55,829 bases of DNA from Campylobacterales bacterium (lineage in GTDB: Bacteria > Campylobacterota > Campylobacteria > Campylobacterales > QNZT01): NCBI GenBank assembly GCA_016744895.1, contig JADGDK010000004.1:1-55829 (forward strand), read 5' to 3'. A program made the position numbers and the translations under genes. The first letter of the stretch is position 1; the number at the start of each line of letters is the position of its first letter. Under the pieces are notes generated by a model that saw only the letters and a program-made list of their open reading frames with translations, was not told where the DNA came from and searched no databases. This document shows, one piece after another, positions 3,423-51,663 of this stretch.

Positions 3423-6400
3423 TAGAAGTTATCGCCTCTAATTTCTCTACAATCATCTCATTTACAGAGATATTTGATTCGATAACAACATCTTGAAGTT
3501 TTGATGATAATATAAGCTTTAATGGTCGATTTCCAGGATATTCTTTGACCAATTTATGAAGTGCATTTAAAGTTTCTACTCCTGAACTAATTTCAACTTT
3601 TACAAAAATTGGTGAAATAACCTCTTTGATTACCTCTTTCTTGATATCTGTCTTCTCTTTCTTTGCACCATCTAAATCTGAAACTTTGAGAACTCTTTTA
3701 TTAATCCCTCGATCATCTTTTGTAATTTGTACCTTAAAAGCAATTGGTCTATTTTGATCCATCATAGCAATTTGCACTAGTGTCTTTTCAAATACCATAA
3801 ACTCGATATCTCCGTGAAAATCCATCAACTGAACGATACCAAACTTATTTCCCTTTTTACTAATTTTTTGAGTAATACTCTCTATCTTGCCTATAAAAAG
3901 CGTTTTAGATCCATCTGCAAAATCATCAATTTCACTCGAAAGCGTATGTTCAATCTTTCCAATCTCATCTCTAAATTCATCCAAAGGATGTCCTGAGACA
4001 TAAAATCCTAAAGTCTCTTTTTCCAAAGAGAGAATATCTTTACCATCATATTCTGGTAATTCATCAATTTCAACTGAAACTTTTGTAAGCTCTTCATCTT
4101 CGCCAAAAAGTGACCCGATTGCCATTTTTTGAGCACGTGCCGCTTCTTGTCCTGACTCAACAATCTTCTCTATTTGGTCTATTAATGCACGTCGTGAATA
4201 ACCAAAACTATCCATCGCACCCGATTTAATAAGTGCTTCTATCACTCGTTTATTAACCTTTGAACCATCAACTCTAGCAATAAAATCACTCATATCCTCA
4301 AATGGTTTCTGATCTCTTGCTTCAAGAATACTTTCTATCGCTTTACTGCCAACACCTTTAATCGCACCCATACCAAAAAGAATAGAGTCATGATCTCCAT
4401 CTTCATAGGGACTAAACTCAATACTACTCGCTATCACAGAAGGCGGTAAAAGCTCAATACCAACTCTTTTAACCTCATCCACATATTTAGCAACTTTGTC
4501 CGTATTTTGCGCTTCACTCGTAAGCAGTGCTGCCATAAACTCTGCTGGATAATAAGTTTTGAGATAAGAGGTTTCAAAAGTAATCATCGCATATGCCGCG
4601 GAGTGAGATTTATTAAAACCATATCCTGCAAACTTCACAATCAAATCAAAAAGTTCTTCAGCTTTTGGTCTGTTAAAACCTTTCTTCTGAGCACCATCTG
4701 CAAACTCACCTTTAAGCCGATCCATCTCCTCTTTGATCTTTTTACCCATCGCACGTCTTACAACATCCGCACCACCGAGTGAAAATCCACCGATAGTCTG
4801 AACAATTTGCATAACTTGTTCTTGGTAAACAATAACCCCATAAGTAGGTTTGAGTATAGGTTCAAGTTCTGGAAAATCATAAATAATTGATTGTCGACCA
4901 TGCTTTCTTTCGATAAAATCATCAAGCATACCTGATTCCATAGGTCCTGGTCGATAAAGTGCCAAGACCGCGATTAAATCCTCAAAGTTACTTGGTTTTA
5001 ACCGTTCATTTAGGGATTGCATACCATCAGACTCAATTTGAAACAGTCCAATCGTTGCGCCACTTTGAACCAGTTCATAAATCTTGGGATCATCAAAATC
5101 AATTTTATTAAAGTTTATCTTTTCATCATAACGCTTTTCAATCAACTTCAATGCATCATCAATTACAGTCAGAGTTTTAAGCCCCAAAAAGTCAAATTTG
5201 ATCAGATCTACATCTTCAAGATATTTCAATGAGTATTGCGTTACGTAAGGTTGATCTTCTCCTGAAGGTTTATAAATGGGAGATTTGTTCCAAAGTGCAT
5301 CATTACTTAATACCACACCAGCAGCATGCATACCCGAGTTTCGGTTTAATCCTTCTAATGCTAACGCAAACTCCCAAACTCTTTTTGCTTGAGAATTTGA
5401 CTCTATAAGTTCTTTGATTTTTGGCTCTTTTTCATAAGAACTTGCCAAATCTATACCCAACTCATCAGGAATCAGTTTTGCCATAGCATCTGCTTGGGCA
5501 TAAGGCATAGCCATCACTCGTGCAACATCTCTAATAACTCCCTTTGCCAAAAGCTTACCAAAAGTAATGACTTGAGCAACATTTTCTCGACCATATTTAT
5601 CTACAACATAATCAATCGACTCACCCCGTCTTTTTTGACAAAAATCAATATCAATATCGGGCATGCTCACACGTTCAGGATTAAGAAACCTCTCAAAAAG
5701 TAGATCATATTTCATAGGATCAATATCTGTAATTTCTAGTGAAAAAGCAACCAAACTTCCAGCTGCAGAACCCCGTCCAGGCCCTATAGGAATCCCCTTC
5801 TCTTTAGCATCACGAATAAAATCCCAAACAATCAGCATATACCCTGGAAATTTCATACTATTGATGATATCCATCTCAAATTCTAAGCGCTCTTTATACT
5901 CCTGATGTTTTTCAGAAGATACAATTTTTAAACGCTCTTCTAAGCCCTCTTTACATTTGTAAACAAAATAGTCTGCATCATTATCAAAATCTAACCCTTC
6001 TCTTTGTGCATACTCTTGGACAAATTTAAAATTTGGAGGTGTTGGATCCCCCAATTTAATTTCTAAATTACACTTATCCACAATCTCTTGTGTATTTTCA
6101 ATCGCTTCTGGGATATCAGAAAAAAGAGCATGCATCTGCTCAGGACTTTTTACAAAAAACTCATGAACACTATGCCGAAGACGATTTGGATCATCAAACT
6201 CTTTATTCATTGCAATACACATAAAAGCTTCATGTGCATCTGCTAAAGGTTGCTCAAGATAATGTGTATCATTAGTAGCAATAATCTTAATTCCTGTTTC
6301 AGCTGAGAGTTGAATCACTTGTTCATCAATATAGTGCTGATCCCCAATACCGTGGCGCATCAACTCCATATAAAAGTCATCTCCAAAAATCTCTTTGTAC

Positions 6401-32434: not shown

Positions 32435-34072
32435 TTACATGACTTCCTTTAACACATCAGCTACACGAAAAGCATTTGCATAAATTGTCCATGTATAAGG
32501 TACACTTCCACCTGTTGGCATAAAACTTCCATCAGTCACAAAAAGATTTGGAACTTCATGTGATCTACATTCTTTATCTAACACAGAAGTTTTAGGATCA
32601 TTTCCAAAACGACATCCTCCAGCTTGTAAATTTTGTGGCGGATATGGACTTACAGAGCTTGAAATATTTTTTGCTCCCATTTTTTGTAACACTCGTTCTG
32701 TTTTTTTAGCTAATAATTTACCTACTTCTACATTTTTAGGATGTGACTCTATTCTAATTTTAGCTACAGGTATACCATATTTATCTAAATAGTGTGAATC
32801 CACATCAACAAAACAATTATCATGCGGTATCCAATCATTAAAAATCTCAAAATCAAGTTGTTTTTTATGGTTAAATTTATCATAAATTTTTTCTTGAAGT
32901 GCTTCCCCCCATAATATTGATCCACTTCCCCATTTCTGTCTATTTGCTTTTACAATAGGATTTGCATGCTCAAAGAGTGCTTCAGATATACCACCTTTAC
33001 GATTTTCATCTAAAAAATACCAATCTTTGATGGTACGATTAACAAACAATCCTTCAACCATTAAATCTTTTAATTTCATTGCACTTTCATCAAACGTGCC
33101 ATTTACAACTCCTCCCGCAGAAAAAAGTAAGTTTTTCCCTACTTGTCCACTATTATTCGCCAAACCATTAGGAAAATTTTCTGATTTTGAATTTAGTAAA
33201 AGTCTTGAACTCTCTACAGCTTGTGCTGCTACAACAAATATCTTAGCTTTTACTGTTTTACTATTCCCCAAAATATCAATATATTCTACCTCTTTAACAC
33301 TCCCGTCTCGCTCATTCAATTTCTTCACAAAAGCGTGGGTAATAATAGTTAAATTTCCTGTTTTTAAAGCGGGTTGTAAGAGTGCTGCACGAGAACTACC
33401 TTTTGCTCCACTACTACATCCATAACTACCACAATAGTTTGAATAATAACATGCATTTCTATCTTCTTTGGCAACACTCATAATAGCTCTAGGAGTTTTA
33501 ACCACAGTAATACCTAAATCCTTACAACTTTTATCAATTAGTTTTGAGATAGGATGTTCCGTAGTCGGTGGGTATGGAAAATCTTTTGTACTTCTTGGTT
33601 CTTGAAATTTATAAGGTGTTACTTCACCACTAATACCTACAATTCTTTCAACCTTTTCATAGTATGGCTCCATATCTTCATAAGATATAGGCCAATCTAC
33701 TATATTTGCCCCTTCAATCGCTCCAAACTCACTCAATAACCTAAAGTCTTTAGGATGTAATCTATGAAAGAAACCACTCATAAAATTTGAAGACCCTCCT
33801 ACGATATTTCCATTCCAAAAATCCCAACCTGATTTATATGTAGGAGTTGCTTTCCATGTAATACCCTCTTTTTCTTCAATAAGATGGTATTGCTCTTTTA
33901 ATTTTGAGCTTACTACACTTCGTCTACAAAAGGCAATCTCATCTTTGGAAAAATCTTCCTCTTTATAAAAACCACCTTTCTCCAAAATCACTACTTTTTT
34001 ACCACATTTAGTCAACTCATAAGCAATAGGTCCAGCTCCAGCTCCACTTCCTACGATACAAATATCATACAT
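32435..34072 (-). CDS. GMC-family oxidoreductase, large subunit type
   Basis: The 545-residue flavoprotein begins with a Rossmann FAD site (CIVGSGAGAGPIAYEL), has a GGSSNFMSG segment, a Cys-rich stretch (CYYSNYCGSYGCSSGAKGSS) as in the large subunits of gluconate- and sorbitol-type dehydrogenases, and the C-terminal GMC motif VTDGSFMPTGGSVPYTWTIYA. It probably oxidises an alcohol or sugar acid. It has no signal peptide of its own; the upstream small-subunit gene overlaps it by 8 bases and carries a Tat-like signal, so the pair may be exported together. No cytochrome c subunit is nearby. The substrate is unknown. Confidence 0.85.
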   Translation of the reverse strand: MYDICIVGSGAGAGPIAYELTKCGKKVVILEKGGFYKEEDFSKDEIAFCRRSVVSSKLKEQYHLIEEKEGITWKATPTYKSGWDFWNGNIVGGSSNFMSGFFHRLHPKDFRLLSEFGAIEGANIVDWPISYEDMEPYYEKVERIVGISGEVTPYKFQEPRSTKDFPYPPTTEHPISKLIDKSCKDLGITVVKTPRAIMSVAKEDRNACYYSNYCGSYGCSSGAKGSSRAALLQPALKTGNLTIITHAFVKKLNERDGSVKEVEYIDILGNSKTVKAKIFVVAAQAVESSRLLLNSKSENFPNGLANNSGQVGKNLLFSAGGVVNGTFDESAMKLKDLMVEGLFVNRTIKDWYFLDENRKGGISEALFEHANPIVKANRQKWGSGSILWGEALQEKIYDKFNHKKQLDFEIFNDWIPHDNCFVDVDSHYLDKYGIPVAKIRIESHPKNVEVGKLLAKKTERVLQKMGAKNISSSVSPYPPQNLQAGGCRFGNDPKTSVLDKECRSHEVPNLFVTDGSFMPTGGSVPYTWTIYANAFRVADVLKEVM

Positions 34073-34550
34073 GATGAATTACTCCAAATCTTTTTTTAGG
34101 TCTTGGTAATCCAGGATTATGATTAAAACTTTGCCAACCAATCTCTTTTACATTACCACCATATAGAGGATCACTAAAAAGTGCTTCTAGTGTATAATTT
34201 AAAACCATTGAAATCCAATTTTCTCCAAATCTCTCCTGTGAAAACTCTTTCAAAAGTTTCTCTTTTTCCATAAAAGAGAGCCCATTTCTGTATCCCCTAC
34301 CCTGTATCTCTTGGAGACCTCTAAATAAAAACTCTAAATCATCTCTATCAAATGAATTATCTTTAGAAACTATTTTTAAATATCTAATTGCTTCAAATTC
34401 AGAAGCTGAGGGGTAATGTTTTGTTTTAGGAAACAGATGATTTTGAATAGACTCTAAAACATCCCACTTATCCTCCTTTTTCAAAAAAGAGAAAAATCCA
34501 AAAGCCAATGTTGAAAAAAGTGGTAAAAAAATAAATAATCTTCGTGTCAT
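34065..34550 (-). CDS. gluconate 2-dehydrogenase subunit 3-type protein
   Basis: The 161-residue protein starts MTRRLFIFLPLFSTLAFGFF, a short twin-arginine-like signal, and continues with a helical domain (NHLFPKTKHYPSASEFEAIR) typical of subunit 3 of gluconate 2-dehydrogenases. I start it at ATG 34550, behind AAGGGG; an in-frame codon 27 bases earlier has no ribosome site. It overlaps the GMC gene by 8 bases. Its likely job is to carry the folded flavoprotein through the Tat system and help assemble the complex. Confidence 0.75.
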   Translation of the reverse strand: MTRRLFIFLPLFSTLAFGFFSFLKKEDKWDVLESIQNHLFPKTKHYPSASEFEAIRYLKIVSKDNSFDRDDLEFLFRGLQEIQGRGYRNGLSFMEKEKLLKEFSQERFGENWISMVLNYTLEALFSDPLYGGNVKEIGWQSFNHNPGLPRPKKRFGVIHHV

Positions 34551-34578: not shown

Positions 34579-34615
34579 AGAGTGTGTAGTAAATGTGGAA
34601 TATTCTACACACTCT
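34579..34615. promoter_or_regulatory. inverted repeat between divergent genes
   Basis: AGAGTGTGTAG at 34579-34589 and its complement at 34605-34615 flank 15 bases. The site lies between the start of the GMC operon and the small secreted-protein gene at 34664, where a shared operator would be expected. It could also form an RNA hairpin in either 5' leader. Confidence 0.45.
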
Positions 34616-34663: not shown

Positions 34664-34813
34664 ATGAAAAACATGATCATAACCATAGTTGTAGGAGCAT
34701 TTTTAGCCTCCTACTTAATTGCAGCAGATGTAGCGCCAAAAGCTGTTACAGTAGAAACAAACACGTCTACAACACAAGAAGTCAACAAATGTGGAGCAGG
34801 AAAATGTAGTTAA
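34664..34813 (+). CDS. 49-residue secreted peptide with KCGAGKC tail
   Basis: A signal peptide (about 1-20, cut near SYLIA-AD) is followed by a 29-residue mature part rich in Thr and Val and ending NKCGAGKCS. AAGGA lies 6 bases before the ATG. The tail resembles the KCG/GKC motifs of copper-binding bufferin/HvfA-type peptides, but only one copy is present and no DUF692-type modifying enzyme is in the window. It opens a run of tiny Cys-containing exported proteins. Metal or thiol chemistry is a guess. Confidence 0.6.
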   Translation: MKNMIITIVVGAFLASYLIAADVAPKAVTVETNTSTTQEVNKCGAGKCS

Positions 34814-34886
34814 TTACTATTACAAAGCGTAACAAGAGATAAAAAAATAGCATAGACTAGTAATTTAATTTTTACTTATACTTCTT

Positions 34887-34907
34887 TTTTGGTAAACTAT
34901 ATTTATC
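34887..34907 (+). promoter_or_regulatory. 21-bp promoter box, copy 1
   Basis: TTTTGGTAAACT-A-TATTTATC lies 20 bases before the ATG of the lipoprotein at 34928. The same box, with T in place of the central A, occurs at 35244-35264 before the next paralog. The match of 20 of 21 bases outside coding sequence suggests a shared promoter or operator. Confidence 0.55.
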
Positions 34908-34927
34908 CAAATTTAAAAGGAGTTCTG

Positions 34928-35059
34928 ATGAAAAAGTTAATTTTAAGCTCAATCTTAGCAGTAGCTGTTATGGCTATTTCTGGATGCAGTAGTAAATGTG
35001 GTGGTACTTGTGCTCCAAGTTACCCAACTTGTGTCAAACCAGCTTGTGGCTGTAAATAA
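34928..35059 (+). CDS. 43-residue Cys-rich lipoprotein, paralog 1
   Basis: A lipoprotein signal ends in ISGC with the lipidated Cys at 20. The mature 24 residues hold five further Cys (positions 24, 28, 35, 40, 42), in KCGGTCAP and ACGCK. AAAAGGAG precedes the ATG. Signal length, lipobox position and Cys content match the proteins at 35282 and 35564, so the three are paralogs. A membrane-tethered metal- or thiol-binding role is an inference from Cys density alone. Confidence 0.75.
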   Translation: MKKLILSSILAVAVMAISGCSSKCGGTCAPSYPTCVKPACGCK

Positions 35060-35064
35060 GCCTA

Positions 35065-35091
35065 AATAAGGAGATTTTATTTCTCCTTATT
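35065..35091. terminator. hairpin after lipoprotein paralog 1
   Basis: A 10-bp perfect stem (AATAAGGAGA and complement) with a 7-base loop begins 5 bases after the stop. No strong T-run follows. It probably ends or protects the small transcript. Confidence 0.6.
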
Positions 35092-35243
35092 ACTTCATAT
35101 ATCTCACCCTTCTAAACTAAATTTCTTTAAATTCACTGGTTATACTTAAATTATACAGAAGAAAATCTTCTTAAGCTTACATTTTGTAACAGATTCTATA
35201 AAAAGCTTATAAATAATCTATTGTTATTGCATTTTTTATTCTA

Positions 35244-35264
35244 TTTTGGTAAACTTTATTTATC
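35244..35264 (+). promoter_or_regulatory. 21-bp promoter box, copy 2
   Basis: This is the second copy of the TTTTGGTAAACT...TATTTATC box, 17 bases before the ATG at 35282 and 13 before the ribosome site is complete. Only one base differs from copy 1 at 34887-34907. Confidence 0.55.
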
Positions 35265-35281
35265 TTTAATAAGGAGTGGTA

Positions 35282-35452
35282 ATGAATAAATTACTTTTAG
35301 GATCTTTTGTTGCAGTTGCAATGATCGCTTTTAGTGGATGTACTTATAAGCCTGCGACAGTAGCAAAAGCTAAATCAGTTTGCGTGGGTTGTGATAATCT
35401 ACCTGATTGTGTCCCTGGACCATATGGCGATTGTCTTCCAAAACAGAAATAA
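35282..35452 (+). CDS. 56-residue Cys-containing lipoprotein, paralog 2
   Basis: The lipobox FSGC places the lipidated Cys at 20, exactly as in its neighbours, followed by TYKPA, then VCVGCDNLPDC and a final Cys near residue 51. TAAGGAG precedes the ATG. Compared with paralog 1 it is longer and has fewer Cys per length. It has its own copy of the promoter box and its own hairpin behind it, so it can be transcribed alone. Confidence 0.72.
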   Translation: MNKLLLGSFVAVAMIAFSGCTYKPATVAKAKSVCVGCDNLPDCVPGPYGDCLPKQK

Positions 35453-35469
35453 ATTTAAAAAGCTATTAC

Positions 35470-35500
35470 CTAAAGTACAACACTTTGTGTTGTACTTTAG
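35470..35500. terminator. 14-bp hairpin after lipoprotein paralog 2
   Basis: CTAAAGTACAACAC pairs fully with its complement around a TTT loop. It lies 17 bases past the stop. A second, 9-bp inverted repeat (TTTTAACTG, 35512-35520 with 35530-35538) follows before paralog 3 and could control it. Confidence 0.65.
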
Positions 35501-35563
35501 TATCGTGTAAATTTTAACTGAGCTTAGCCCAGTTAAAAATAAAAATCTAAAAAAGGAGAAATC

Positions 35564-35704
35564 ATGAAAAAGATTATTGTTGGTTCAGTTTTAGCATTAG
35601 CTGTAGTTGCATTCAGTGGATGTACTTACAAAAGCTCATGTGCACCAAAACTTCCTACTTGTGCATCAGCTGTTTCAGCAGCACCTTGTGGCTGCCCTAA
35701 GTAA
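35564..35704 (+). CDS. 46-residue Cys-rich lipoprotein, paralog 3
   Basis: The lipobox FSGC gives a lipidated Cys at 20; the mature part starts CTYK, as in paralog 2, and holds Cys at 26, 33, 42 and 44, ending PCGCPK as paralog 1 ends ACGCK. It thus shares one end with each neighbour. AAAAAGGAG precedes the ATG. It lacks the 21-bp promoter box and has two inverted repeats upstream instead. Function unknown. Confidence 0.75.
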   Translation: MKKIIVGSVLALAVVAFSGCTYKSSCAPKLPTCASAVSAAPCGCPK

Positions 35705-44912: not shown

Positions 44913-45647
44913 ATGAAGAAAACTTTATCAATCGCACTTTTTACCACCGTTTCACTTTTCGCTGGCGCACACTCATCTGCTCATTGGGCTTATGGTGGAA
45001 CTGAAGGTCCAGAATTTTGGGGAGAACTTTCTGAAAAATATGCAATGTGTAAACAGGGTAAAAACCAATCACCTATAAATCTTACCAGTCTTACTGAGGC
45101 AGATATGAAACCTCTAGATCTTAAATATAGAGGACTTTCACAAGATTTTATCAATAATGGACATACAGTACAAGTCAATTTTGGTGAAGGAAGTACACTT
45201 AGTATTGATGATAAAAGTTTTGACCTTAAACAGTTTCATTTTCATACACCAAGTGAAAATCATATTGATGGCAACAGCTATCCTATGGAAGCACATCTTG
45301 TACATGCAAGTAAAGAGGGTGAACTTGCAGTAATTGCAGTAATGTTTAAAGAGGGGAAAAGTAATCCATACTTTCAAAAACTTATCTCAGAGCTTCCTAA
45401 AAAAGCAAAAGATAAAAATGACTTAAAAAATGCGAAGCTTAATGCATATGATATGCTTCCAAAAGACAAAGACTATTATCGTTTTAACGGTTCACTTACA
45501 ACACCACCATGTAGTGAAGGTGTACGATGGATTGTCTTAAAAACTCCTGTTGAACTATCAAAAGATGAGCTAACAGCATTTAGTGCAGTTATGGGAGAAA
45601 ATAATCGTCCAATCCAACCTGTAAATGCAAGAAAAATTTTAAAATAA
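44913..45647 (+). CDS. periplasmic alpha-carbonic anhydrase
   Basis: The 244-residue protein has a signal peptide (about 1-19) and a full alpha-type carbonic anhydrase: zinc ligands H109, H111 and H128 (QFHFHTPSE, MEAHLVH), the proton-relay region NGHTVQV, and LTTPPCSEGV with the active-site Thr. Cys46 and the Cys of PPCSEG can form the usual disulfide. It converts CO2 and bicarbonate in the periplasm, relevant to CO2 fixation or acid balance. A lipidated paralog follows. Confidence 0.95.
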   Translation: MKKTLSIALFTTVSLFAGAHSSAHWAYGGTEGPEFWGELSEKYAMCKQGKNQSPINLTSLTEADMKPLDLKYRGLSQDFINNGHTVQVNFGEGSTLSIDDKSFDLKQFHFHTPSENHIDGNSYPMEAHLVHASKEGELAVIAVMFKEGKSNPYFQKLISELPKKAKDKNDLKNAKLNAYDMLPKDKDYYRFNGSLTTPPCSEGVRWIVLKTPVELSKDELTAFSAVMGENNRPIQPVNARKILK

Positions 45648-45653
45648 GACCAA

Positions 45654-45686
45654 GTTGCATATTACTGATATACTGTAATATGCAAC
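45654..45686. terminator. hairpin between the carbonic anhydrase genes
   Basis: GTTGCATATTAC (12 bp) pairs exactly with its complement around 9 bases, 6 bases after the stop. It suggests the two carbonic anhydrase genes are separate transcripts. Confidence 0.6.
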
Positions 45687-45777
45687 AAAATGTTAAGTAA
45701 CATTGAATAAACAGCCCTCCTAAAAACCTTAAGTTAAATAATTATAACATTTCATATAACTTTTTTAAGGAATTTCT

Positions 45778-46554
45778 ATGAAAAAAATCATTTCAGTATC
45801 GTTAGCAATTGCATTTTTACTTACTGGTTGTACTTCACATCAAAAGAGTGTCCAAAAGCATGTCAAAGCAAAAGTACATGAGGCACACTGGGGTTATATT
45901 GGAGAGTACGGTCCTCAAAATTGGGGTGATATGAAAGAGTCATACAAGATGTGTAAATTGGGTAAAAACCAATCTCCTGTAAATTTGACAGGTTTTAAAG
46001 ACCCATTCATGTACCCTTTAAAAATAAAATATGTAACAGGTTCAACTAGTTTTATCAATAATGGACATACAGTACAAGTCAATTTTAAAGAGGGAAGTGA
46101 ACTTTACATAGATAAAAAAATCTATAAATTAAAACAATTTCATTTCCACACGCCAAGTGAAAATAAACTCTATGATAAAAGTTTTCCAATGGAAGCACAT
46201 TTAGTACATGCTACTGATAATGGTGAATTAGCAGTTGTTGCAGTCATGTTTAGCGGCGGATTTAATGATAATCCATTTTTAGCAAAATTTATCTCAAAAA
46301 TGCCAATGACTAAGGGTGCTAAAAGTGATTTAACAAAAGAGAACCTCAATGCCTATGATATGATGCCGGAGGATAAAAACTACTATCGATTTAATGGTTC
46401 ACTCACAACTCCACCATGTAGTGAGGGTGTACTTTGGCTAGTTTTGAAAAATCCAGTACCTATCTCAGAGAACCAACTCAACGCATTTAGAAAAGTACTA
46501 GGAAACAATAACAGACCAGTTCAGCCAAAAAATGCAAGGGCATTTTTAAAGTAG
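45778..46554 (+). CDS. alpha-carbonic anhydrase, predicted lipoprotein
   Basis: The 258-residue protein is a paralog of the one before it, with zinc ligands H122, H124 and H141 and the same LTTPPCSEGV motif. Its signal differs: the lipobox LLTGC puts a lipidated Cys at 18, followed by a Lys/His-rich spacer of about 18 residues before the catalytic domain. It should therefore be tied to a membrane. TAAGGAA precedes the ATG. Together the two give one free and one anchored enzyme. Confidence 0.92.
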   Translation: MKKIISVSLAIAFLLTGCTSHQKSVQKHVKAKVHEAHWGYIGEYGPQNWGDMKESYKMCKLGKNQSPVNLTGFKDPFMYPLKIKYVTGSTSFINNGHTVQVNFKEGSELYIDKKIYKLKQFHFHTPSENKLYDKSFPMEAHLVHATDNGELAVVAVMFSGGFNDNPFLAKFISKMPMTKGAKSDLTKENLNAYDMMPEDKNYYRFNGSLTTPPCSEGVLWLVLKNPVPISENQLNAFRKVLGNNNRPVQPKNARAFLK

Positions 46555-48830: not shown

Positions 48831-49241
48831 TTGGTCTATTTCACGCTCTTTAGCATTTCACTTCTGGCAGCAACACTGCTGCCTGGAGGAAGTGAAGCAC
48901 TCTTACTTTATAATCTCTCTTTGGGATATGATCCTATTTTACTGATACTCTTTGCAACCATTGGAAATACACTCGGCTCTATCATTAACTACTTTTTAGG
49001 CTATAAAGGTATTAATTTTTTGATAGACAAAGGTTATGCAAAATCAAAACAACTTCAAAAGGCAACCCAAACATTTCAAAAATATGGCGCTTTTTCGTTA
49101 CTCCTGTCATGGATGCCAATCATAGGAGATCCTATTACATTTGTTGCCGGTATTTTAAAATATGATATTAAGAAATTTATAGCTGTCGTTTTTATTGCAA
49201 AAGGGGTGCGATATAGTGTCGTAAGTTTACTAATCACTTAG
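48831..49241 (+). CDS. YqaA-type DedA-family membrane protein
   Basis: The 136-residue protein has about four hydrophobic spans and the DedA/VTT-like segments LLPGGSEALLL, TIGNTLGSIINYFLG and WMPIIGDPITFVAGIL. It matches the short YqaA group. These proteins may move lipids between leaflets. It starts at TTG 48831, right after the transporter gene, so both are probably translated together. The convergent kinase gene overlaps its end by 4 bases. Confidence 0.82.
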   Translation: MVYFTLFSISLLAATLLPGGSEALLLYNLSLGYDPILLILFATIGNTLGSIINYFLGYKGINFLIDKGYAKSKQLQKATQTFQKYGAFSLLLSWMPIIGDPITFVAGILKYDIKKFIAVVFIAKGVRYSVVSLLIT

Positions 49242-50302
49242 TTTTCAAAATATAACTTTATGATAAAAATATCTCCATCTACCTCAACTGTTTTTTTGAT
49301 TTTTAACTCTTCACATAACTTTTGCACGATATGAAGCCCTATGCCCAATCCTCTCTCACCCTCTTTATAAAAACGCTCAAAGATCTTTTTAGGCTCTTTG
49401 ACTCCATAGCTACTATTTGAAATCGTTACTTGCTGATTTTCTACCTTGATAGAGATGAAGCCTGCACTGGTATTGTATCTACATGCATTGCTGAGGAGAT
49501 TGTAGACAATTCTACTTAGAGAATTTTTATCACTTAAAACTGTAAAATCTTTGATCTCTACTTCCCATGAAAGATAATCATATGAAGCTTTAAAAAAATC
49601 AACCTGCTCTTGTATGATAGTTTTTATAGAAAGAGATTGGCTTTGCAGGTTGCTCTCTTGTAGATAATCATCAAGGTTTTTATGTAGCATAGAGATCGTT
49701 TTGGCACTATGTTTAATACTTTGAACCTCTTCATTTTTACCATCCATCATTTTAAGGTTGATAAGAATTGACGTAATAGGTGTATTAAGATCATGAATAA
49801 TATCTTTAATAAACTCTTCCAAAAGTTTCAAAGCATCACGCATTGGTGTCAATGCATAAAAAGAGAAAAATAGAGAGATCAAAATCGCAGCCAAAGAGAA
49901 AAAGAGAAACTGCATCACAATGTTTTCACGTATCTTAGAGAGCATCAATTCAAATGCACTTCTTGGATAAAAAACTTGTAAAAGATCCTCTAAATTTTCA
50001 CCCATAGGTACCAAAATAAAAAGAAGCATTTCATCCATATACAGTTCATACAATTTACTCGTTTTCTGTTTTGGAAGGATATCAATCTCAAAACGATCAT
50101 CATCAAAAAAGAAACTATAATTTTTCATCTCCAAAAAAAGTTGTTCTTTAAGATGTTTCTCTTCTAGTTTGTAGTAATTGAAAAAAATAAAAGCTAAAAA
50201 AAGTTCCATAACAACAAAAAATAGTAAAAAGCTCTTGATAAGAGATTCATTTTGAGAAAGTTTAAATTTTATAACCAACTCCTCTGACACTTTTGATTTC
50301 AA
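49238..50302 (-). CDS. sensor histidine kinase with altered G1 box
   Basis: The 354-residue protein has two membrane spans (about 22-42 and 128-149), a periplasmic part of about 85 residues, an H-box DIIHDLNTPITS, an N-box NLLSNACRYN and a G2 box GLGIGLHIV. The G1 box that is normally DxGxG reads SNSSYG. This could lower ATP turnover. The start is uncertain: the frame opens at TTG 50302, overlapping the regulator gene by 41 bases. The pair ends an operon of envelope genes. Confidence 0.85.
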   Translation of the reverse strand: MKSKVSEELVIKFKLSQNESLIKSFLLFFVVMELFLAFIFFNYYKLEEKHLKEQLFLEMKNYSFFFDDDRFEIDILPKQKTSKLYELYMDEMLLFILVPMGENLEDLLQVFYPRSAFELMLSKIRENIVMQFLFFSLAAILISLFFSFYALTPMRDALKLLEEFIKDIIHDLNTPITSILINLKMMDGKNEEVQSIKHSAKTISMLHKNLDDYLQESNLQSQSLSIKTIIQEQVDFFKASYDYLSWEVEIKDFTVLSDKNSLSRIVYNLLSNACRYNTSAGFISIKVENQQVTISNSSYGVKEPKKIFERFYKEGERGLGIGLHIVQKLCEELKIKKTVEVDGDIFIIKLYFEN

Positions 50303-50888
50303 CTTTTAGATTTTTTTTAAGCTTTGCAATATTAACACGTAGAGCAAGATCCGTCGGTTTTTCTAAAAGTAGTAAAAGTTCATCCTTTACTACAGGATTA
50401 GGATGATTTTGCATCAACGAAATCAGCAAACTCTTTTGTACTTCACCAAGTTTTAATAATTCACCATTTTGATACACTTCTCTCACAGCGACATCTACTT
50501 CCAAATCTCCTAAAACAAGTCGCTCTTTAAGTTGTGCTGTCTTGGCTTTGATACGCACCAATAACTCTTCAGGATCAAAAGGCTTTTTAACATAATCATC
50601 TGCTCCTGCAATAAACCCTTTTGTCACCGACTTTACATCTTGAAGCGCACTGATGATAATTGTTGGTGTAAAATCTTCTGCTTCACGTAAAGCTGTCAAA
50701 AGATCTATACCATTGAGCAGTGGTACGTTGATGTCAAAAAGATAGATATCATAACGACTCACATAGCTTAAATCTATCGCCTCTTCTCCATTTTTTGCCC
50801 AATCAATCTCCATATTCTCTTGAGAAAGGTATTTGATCAATGTTTTTGATAATACAGGGTCATCTTCTAATAATAGTATTTTAATCAA
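50262..50888 (-). CDS. OmpR-family response regulator
   Basis: The 208-residue protein has a receiver with D9/D10, acceptor D52 (LFDINVPLLNG) and the KKPFDP lysine, then a short winged-helix domain ending VRGVGYKI. I start it at TTG 50888, 6 bases behind GGAG, rather than at TTG 50900, which has no ribosome site. It overlaps the kinase gene, and the barrel-protein gene is directly upstream, suggesting it controls that group. Confidence 0.88.
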   Translation of the reverse strand: MIKILLLEDDPVLSKTLIKYLSQENMEIDWAKNGEEAIDLSYVSRYDIYLFDINVPLLNGIDLLTALREAEDFTPTIIISALQDVKSVTKGFIAGADDYVKKPFDPEELLVRIKAKTAQLKERLVLGDLEVDVAVREVYQNGELLKLGEVQKSLLISLMQNHPNPVVKDELLLLLEKPTDLALRVNIAKLKKNLKVEIKSVRGVGYKI

Positions 50889-51663
50889 AATGAACTCCAA
50901 ATTTTAGTGAAAATGTATGATCAAATGACAAATCATCTAATCCATAGGCATAATTAAATGTCGTAAAATAACGCTTGGAAAATGAGTAGCTATGAAACCA
51001 TGAAAGTGCTGTGTAGTTATCATTCCCAGAATATGCAGATTGACTATAATCATAAGATAATGCACTATAATATTTACTATTAAATGCATACCCTCCTCCT
51101 ATAGAAAATGTAAAAAAATTCTCATAATCCACTTCTCTACTATCACCACTTACTGTATACCCACCGTAAACAAAGATATCTCTTTTCTCATCGATAAAAT
51201 AATCTAAACTGAGGGAAGCATAATAATCATTTTCACCTGTACCGATATCATCACTCACTGAAAGCTTACTTCCTAAAGTAACAAATGTATGAAAATTCTC
51301 ATTTTTAATACGATATCCACCACTAAGATATAGATCTCCAATACCAGTATAAGAATCTTGATAACTCTCATAATAGCTATAGTTTGAAAGCGTAAAAGTA
51401 AAATCATCAAAACTATATGAAGTAAAAAGATTTAAAGAGGAAGTTTTATCAGATAAAGTATCAAAACTGATATCTGTACCAATCTTAAAAATCAACTCTC
51501 CAGTTTTTTTCTCATCCAAGGCACATCCATCTTCACCCACTAACTGATCAAATGGAGTATCAGGACATCGATCTTGTGCATCTTCAACACCATCAATATC
51601 ATAATCTTGAAATGCAAAAACAGTCCCTGAAAGTAATATTAAAATAACAGCTATTTTCTTCAT
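50881..51663 (-). CDS. outer-membrane beta-barrel protein with calcium-type repeat
   Basis: The 260-residue protein has a signal peptide (about 1-18), then a short Asp-rich thrombospondin-3-like motif (DYDIDGVEDAQDRCPDTP) with two Cys, and then alternating aromatic/polar strands (many Ser, Tyr, Phe) that suit a barrel of about 10-12 strands, ending FSLKFGVHFD. It lies 12 bases after the basic-protein gene and overlaps the regulator. It could be a porin or a sensor for the two-component system. Confidence 0.75.
   Translation of the reverse strand: MKKIAVILILLSGTVFAFQDYDIDGVEDAQDRCPDTPFDQLVGEDGCALDEKKTGELIFKIGTDISFDTLSDKTSSLNLFTSYSFDDFTFTLSNYSYYESYQDSYTGIGDLYLSGGYRIKNENFHTFVTLGSKLSVSDDIGTGENDYYASLSLDYFIDEKRDIFVYGGYTVSGDSREVDYENFFTFSIGGGYAFNSKYYSALSYDYSQSAYSGNDNYTALSWFHSYSFSKRYFTTFNYAYGLDDLSFDHTFSLKFGVHFD

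Follow-up and report, generated by a model that had tools for sequence, protein, structure and literature searches.

Are four very short, cysteine-rich open reading frames, packed into about 1 kb of DNA, real genes, and if so, in which process would their products take part? The window, a stretch of 55,829 nucleotides, corresponds to contig C315 in a genome that is incomplete; among named records, MAGs of uncultured Campylobacterales (e.g., SZUA-1433) come closest to it. A sequence-only reading of the window had described the four as tiny exported proteins, three of them paralogous lipoproteins, and had suggested metal or thiol chemistry at the cell surface. The three lipoproteins are named A, B and C here by gene order, and the 49-aa KCG protein is named H (Table 1). 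Relatives were surveyed in 259 genomes of the order, comprising 22 from the family of the window genome (f1, with genera g1-g6) and 237 others; labels such as f2 and f6 denote other families of the order. Elsewhere in the window (44913-46554), two tandem similar ORFs resemble alpha-type carbonic anhydrases by eye, one of them a predicted lipoprotein.

Table 1. Features of the array, its promoter elements and the divergent gene pair (window positions).
Feature	Position	Strand	Description
GMC flavoenzyme	32435..34072	-	Leu and Pro at the positions of the catalytic His and downstream Asn of FAD-GDH/FDH; all three Fe-S Cys present
Gluconate_2-dh3 small subunit	34065..34550	-	Tat-like start MTRRLF; Pfam PF13618, E=2.6e-9
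Inverted repeat AGAGTGTGTAG-N15-CTACACACTCT	34579..34615		Divergent promoter region; putative shared operator
H	34664..34813	+	49-aa exported protein, C-terminal end KCGAGKCS
TTTTGGTAAACTATATTTATC	34887..34907	+	Promoter/operator-like element upstream of A
A	34928..35059	+	43-aa lipoprotein; lipid Cys20, then CGGTC...SYPTC...CGCK
TTTTGGTAAACTTTATTTATC	35244..35264	+	Promoter/operator-like element upstream of B
B	35282..35452	+	56-aa lipoprotein; lipid Cys20, near-invariant CxGC..lPxCVPGPyGDC
C	35564..35704	+	46-aa lipoprotein; lipid Cys20, SSC...PTC...CGCPK; paralogue of A

The description of the array given by the sequence-only reading was borne out in most respects. All four ORFs were found where it had placed them, at the lengths listed in Table 1, and a GGA/GGAG-type ribosome site precedes each. 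A lipobox Cys at position 20 was present in A, B and C, followed by the expected 4-5 additional Cys (5 in A, 4 in B and 4 in C), and the fourth protein, H, does end in KCGAGKCS. The three lipoproteins also have the features of bacterial lipoproteins, with a positively charged start, a hydrophobic core and SGC at positions 18-20, where cleavage and lipidation are predicted. Chance ORFs were ruled out on two grounds. The 1158-bp stretch holds three lipobox ORFs with at least three further Cys, and among 1000 dinucleotide shuffles of it no such ORF arose in 996, one arose in 4 and more than one never did. Additionally, codon comparison between congeners gave pN/pS values of 0.03-0.41 across the array genes (A, 0.07-0.26; B, 0.21-0.41; C, 0.03-0.30), instead of the dN/dS near 1 in close relatives that had been proposed as the sign of non-conserved reading frames. 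The four ORFs are real, conserved genes under purifying selection. No Pfam or NCBIfam family matched any of the four proteins above its cut-off.

The claim that the three lipoproteins are paralogues stood only for one pair. The mature parts of A and C align better than 999 of 1000 shuffles, and by this alignment A and C are paralogues, mature part included. The mature parts of B and C gave a marginal result, with 11 of 1000 shuffles reaching the alignment score, and for A and B the score was reached by 177 of 1000, so that paralogy of these two is unsupported; B is alike mainly in the signal peptide and SGCTYK. Common descent of all three was rejected, as outside the signal peptide only A and C hold together.

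A was present in 11 of the 22 f1 genomes and full-length B in 10 of them, the latter in none of the 237 other genomes of the order; the array genes are confined to one family of uncultured Campylobacterales, and the Cys spacing of A, B and C is kept across relatives. In sister genera, A sits between HvfA-like genes and ahead of DoxX (L030, L031), B comes after DoxX and a membrane protein with a Glu_synthase domain (L032), and C-like genes come after the Glu_synthase-domain protein (L036, L114). The membrane-anchored Glu_synthase-domain protein was itself observed in HvfA-like/DoxX operons at L032 1741-3423, L036 6328-8028 and L125 2917-4602. In genome G019, B and C are located away from the GMC/Gluconate_2-dh3 pair. 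Near SurE/ThiF/phytase-like genes of the same genome, a 960-aa Cas9-like protein followed by two ORFs in Cas1/Cas2 positions was noted by eye (L037 9884-14000).

H carries a single KCG motif and had no match in NCBIfam. Its orthologue in congener G021 (L026:359-571) is 70 aa long, contains three KC motifs and reaches 25.0 bits against NF050137, the NCBIfam model of the HvfA family (KCGExKCG twice; cut-off 19.5 bits). Judged by its sequence, H is a shortened relative of the HvfA-like KCGxGKCG proteins. The KCG copy of genome G017 is a remnant that lacks a signal peptide and reads MCSECGAGKCGTSGKCGTGKCG (L025, about 3725-3793); in view of this remnant and the single motif in the window, H may be dispensable here. 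At a second locus of the window genome (L125), an HvfA-like lipoprotein is encoded together with DoxX, the Glu_synthase-domain protein and NosL, and a third HvfA-like gene lies on contig C335 (L038). A small DUF4266 lipoprotein ending in GGCGCK is encoded on the latter contig (L038 6912-7124). DoxX is absent from the window cluster; it adjoins the HvfA-like gene at L125 and in sister genera. In genome G023, a KCG-rich protein of about 235 aa is followed by DoxX (L119 8149-9290).

Divergent from the array lies the pair of a GMC flavoenzyme and a Gluconate_2-dh3 small subunit. The GMC protein is nearest by sequence to FAD glucose dehydrogenase (FAD-GDH) and fructose dehydrogenase (FDH), and its AlphaFold model (pLDDT 87.5) had as best PDB folds the FDH large subunit and FAD-GDH, with a TM of about 0.8; a sequence search of the PDB with the small subunit found no relative. 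The catalytic His is Leu in 47/47 aligned members of this GMC subfamily, and the downstream Asn is Pro in 44 and Ala in 3 of the 47. The three Fe-S cysteines are retained in all 51 aligned GMC sequences, and His and Asn are kept only by three true gluconate dehydrogenases in the alignment. The PDB includes the fructose dehydrogenase variants H1147A and N1190A; going by the alignment and general knowledge of the family, we take these two residues to match the lost His and Asn. Given this loss across the subfamily, the window enzyme is unlikely to be a sugar dehydrogenase. A gluconate dehydrogenase of the Campylobacter type was considered and rejected, as the true ones form a separate group, keep His and Asn and have no KCG neighbour.

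The array and this pair have one divergent promoter region in common. The inverted repeat found there is of the type TGTGTA(G)-N-(C)TACACA, which had 15 matches in 973 kb of loci, 13 of them in such divergent promoter regions (f1, f6, f20), compared with 2 matches in one base-shuffled control set. The same type of repeat was seen by eye between the KCG gene and the GMC pair of plasmid pSulSP. The elements upstream of A and B correspond to GGTAAACTwTATTTATC, which matched 12 times in 973 kb; 11 of these matches immediately precede A, B or C-like genes, and for the remaining one, in L035, no start codon was traced. Co-regulation of the array with the GMC pair through the putative operator is suggested by this arrangement.

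The linkage extends well beyond the window. Across the 259 genomes of the order, a KCG-rich small protein was found within 6.5 kb of the GMC pair at 31/54 loci, in seven families, and DoxX was found near the pair at 21/54. By the 6.5-kb criterion no KCG protein was found at the remaining 23/54 loci, and thus the pair may serve additional functions. Sequence lying more than 6.5 kb away from it (152 kb) held only 5 KCG ORFs, each an HvfA-like gene on a contig retrieved for the array or because of a KCG hit. Chance KCG ORFs are thus rare. The KCG gene and the pair are divergent in f1, f6 and f20 and form a single operon in L108, L109, L112 and L113.

MNIO (PF05114), the iron enzyme that usually modifies peptides of the HvfA type, was found in 23/259 genomes of the order and in 0/22 of f1, and DUF2063/PME1 was likewise found in 0/22, in searches that gave positive matches in control genomes; neither gene turned up elsewhere in the window genome. 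PF13618, the Gluconate_2-dh3 marker of the GMC pair, was present in 20/23 KCG genomes without MNIO versus 2/10 with it (Fisher p=4e-4, genomes being counted as independent of ancestry), and outside f1 the corresponding counts were 12/12 and 2/10 (p=1.4e-4, ancestry ignored). The three KCG genomes with neither MNIO nor PF13618 are incomplete MAGs, and the two genomes with both (G229 and G253) have no KCG gene at their GMC locus. KCG proteins adjoining MNIO and those adjoining the GMC pair match one and the same model. The published survey of MNIO systems counted 67 genomes without MNIO among 2583 with EGKCG precursors (PMC12452194), against an entire family here; the words 'GMC' and 'oxidoreductase' are absent from its main text (PMC12452194), and a literature search for a link between GMC, DoxX and HvfA found nothing. 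The divergent GMC pair, the operator-like repeat and the missing MNIO are a more unusual part of this locus than the Cys proteins on which the sequence-only reading had dwelt.

A connection to copper comes from relatives and from another contig of the genome, as the 1-kb array of the window holds no copper genes of its own. Genes for a CopA-type ATPase, CusA-type efflux, a multicopper oxidase and CrdA-like YtkA lie beside related loci (L110, L111, L115, L120, L133, L138, L139), and NosL adjoins the HvfA-DoxX locus on the other contig. Proteins that join GAGKCG to a YtkA-type domain occur in G001, G015, G019 and G020, and the YtkA domain of the L115 and L116 fusions contains MPEMPGMPYMEY, which closely resembles the CrdA copper motif of H. 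pylori (PMC9182242). Peptide products of the EGKCG type bind copper (PMC13097082). Together with the HvfA-like proteins and DoxX in the same operons, these copper genes lend support to the proposed metal or thiol chemistry at the surface. A histidine kinase and response regulator at 49238-50900 of the window distantly resemble the kinase and regulator that adjoin the CusA locus in L120.

A cassette on pSulSP (Sulfurospirillum sp. 'SP') joins a KCG protein and the GMC pair with a two-component system, MsrP and a ferric-reductase-like (MsrQ-type) protein, and some EGKCG clusters of the MNIO survey include oxidored_molybd and ferric reductase genes (PMC12452194). Both suggest oxidant stress as a live alternative or companion signal. 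The cassette looks mobile (L177 1818-7653; MsrP, ferric-reductase-like protein, histidine kinase, response regulator, KCG, Gluconate_2-dh3 and GMC), being flanked by toxin-antitoxin genes and transposases.

We consider it fairly probable that the array encodes thiolate copper-buffering envelope proteins of an HvfA/DoxX-type module that lacks MNIO and has the GMC enzyme as its redox partner. The array proteins would form the buffering end of an envelope module for copper (soft-metal) and redox stress, in which their thiols (CGC, CxxC, KCGxGKC), once exported, would capture Cu(I) at the outer membrane or within the periplasm and retain it until the metal is pumped out or oxidised. The Tat-type Gluconate_2-dh3/GMC pair, presumably co-regulated and active in the same compartment, would be the redox enzyme of the module and may feed electrons into the respiratory chain by way of FAD and an Fe-S cluster. 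In this scheme we infer the export route, copper as the metal, the co-regulation, the electron path of the GMC enzyme, and that it works on the Cys proteins or alongside them.

The role of the GMC pair could be a different one, that of a maturase that replaces MNIO/DUF2063 and oxidatively modifies cysteines in the KCG proteins, and perhaps in A-C, in the periplasm after export. Its occurrence where MNIO is missing, its position in one operon with KCG genes at four loci, the loss of the sugar-oxidising His in every aligned member and the single model matched by the KCG proteins beside either enzyme all speak for such a role. We nevertheless hold it to be doubtful, since two genomes possess both enzymes, 23 of the 54 GMC loci have no nearby KCG gene and we know of no GMC enzyme that makes thiooxazoles. 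If it were true, the four proteins would give rise, as precursors, to modified copper peptides of a new class, and a branch of Campylobacterota would make modified copper-binding peptides by a second route that is unrelated to the first.

A further reading, in which the four proteins act without modification as thiol buffers that counter oxidants, hypochlorite or reactive sulfur instead of binding metal, with the GMC pair and DoxX keeping the quinone/thiol balance, draws on the gene content of the pSulSP cassette and on a DoxX homologue linked to oxidative or sulfur stress (PMC12452194); the copper-related neighbour genes in several families argue against it, and we judge it unlikely. It is also conceivable, albeit improbable, that A-C are family-specific surface proteins that came to lie beside the HvfA-like/GMC module by happenstance. 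Their restriction to one family and the separation of B and C from the GMC pair in G019 would fit, but A-C stand inside HvfA-like/DoxX operons in sister genera, the GGTAAACTwTATTTATC element is common to the upstream regions of A, B and C-like genes, and the Cys spacing is conserved.

The reading as a copper-buffering module with a GMC redox partner gives the short and easily overlooked lipoproteins a testable role. The same applies to an enzyme that, as a 'GMC family oxidoreductase', would otherwise pass for a sugar dehydrogenase despite its lost catalytic residues. A family that lacks MNIO would offer either a maturase of a new kind, or a new type of redox partner for copper-binding peptides, or a route to the role of unmodified KCG proteins.

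Among known systems, the bufferins (Buf1 DUF2282, Buf2) are likewise small exported Cys proteins that occur with DoxX, some of them lipoproteins, but none of the four window proteins has a DUF2282 Pfam match and MNIO is missing. The PG1828 family (NF050142) also consists of short lipoproteins; B scores 20.6 bits, far below the cut-off of 50, in an alignment of residues 1-35, which are for the most part signal peptide. Relatives at similar loci come close to the CrdA/YtkA copper proteins in that GAGKCG is joined there to a YtkA domain whose Met motif is CrdA-like, whereas the four window proteins have no YtkA domain. HvfA/oxazolin and the EGKCG captophorins (HvfABCD, fontiphorin, gonophorin) share export, repeated GKCG, DoxX in the operon and the copper link, and Campylobacterota relatives score above the NF050137 cut-off. 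In contrast to these systems, f1 lacks the known maturases MNIO and DUF2063 and has the GMC/Gluconate_2-dh3 pair instead, and the window has the extra short lipoproteins A-C and a KCG protein with a single motif. Finally, the GMC pair resembles FAD-GDH, FDH and Campylobacter gluconate dehydrogenase in fold, small subunit and three Fe-S cysteines, but the whole GMC subfamily here has Leu in place of His and Pro or Ala in place of Asn, and unlike the sugar dehydrogenases, enzymes of the window type are found in the company of KCG proteins, DoxX and metal efflux.
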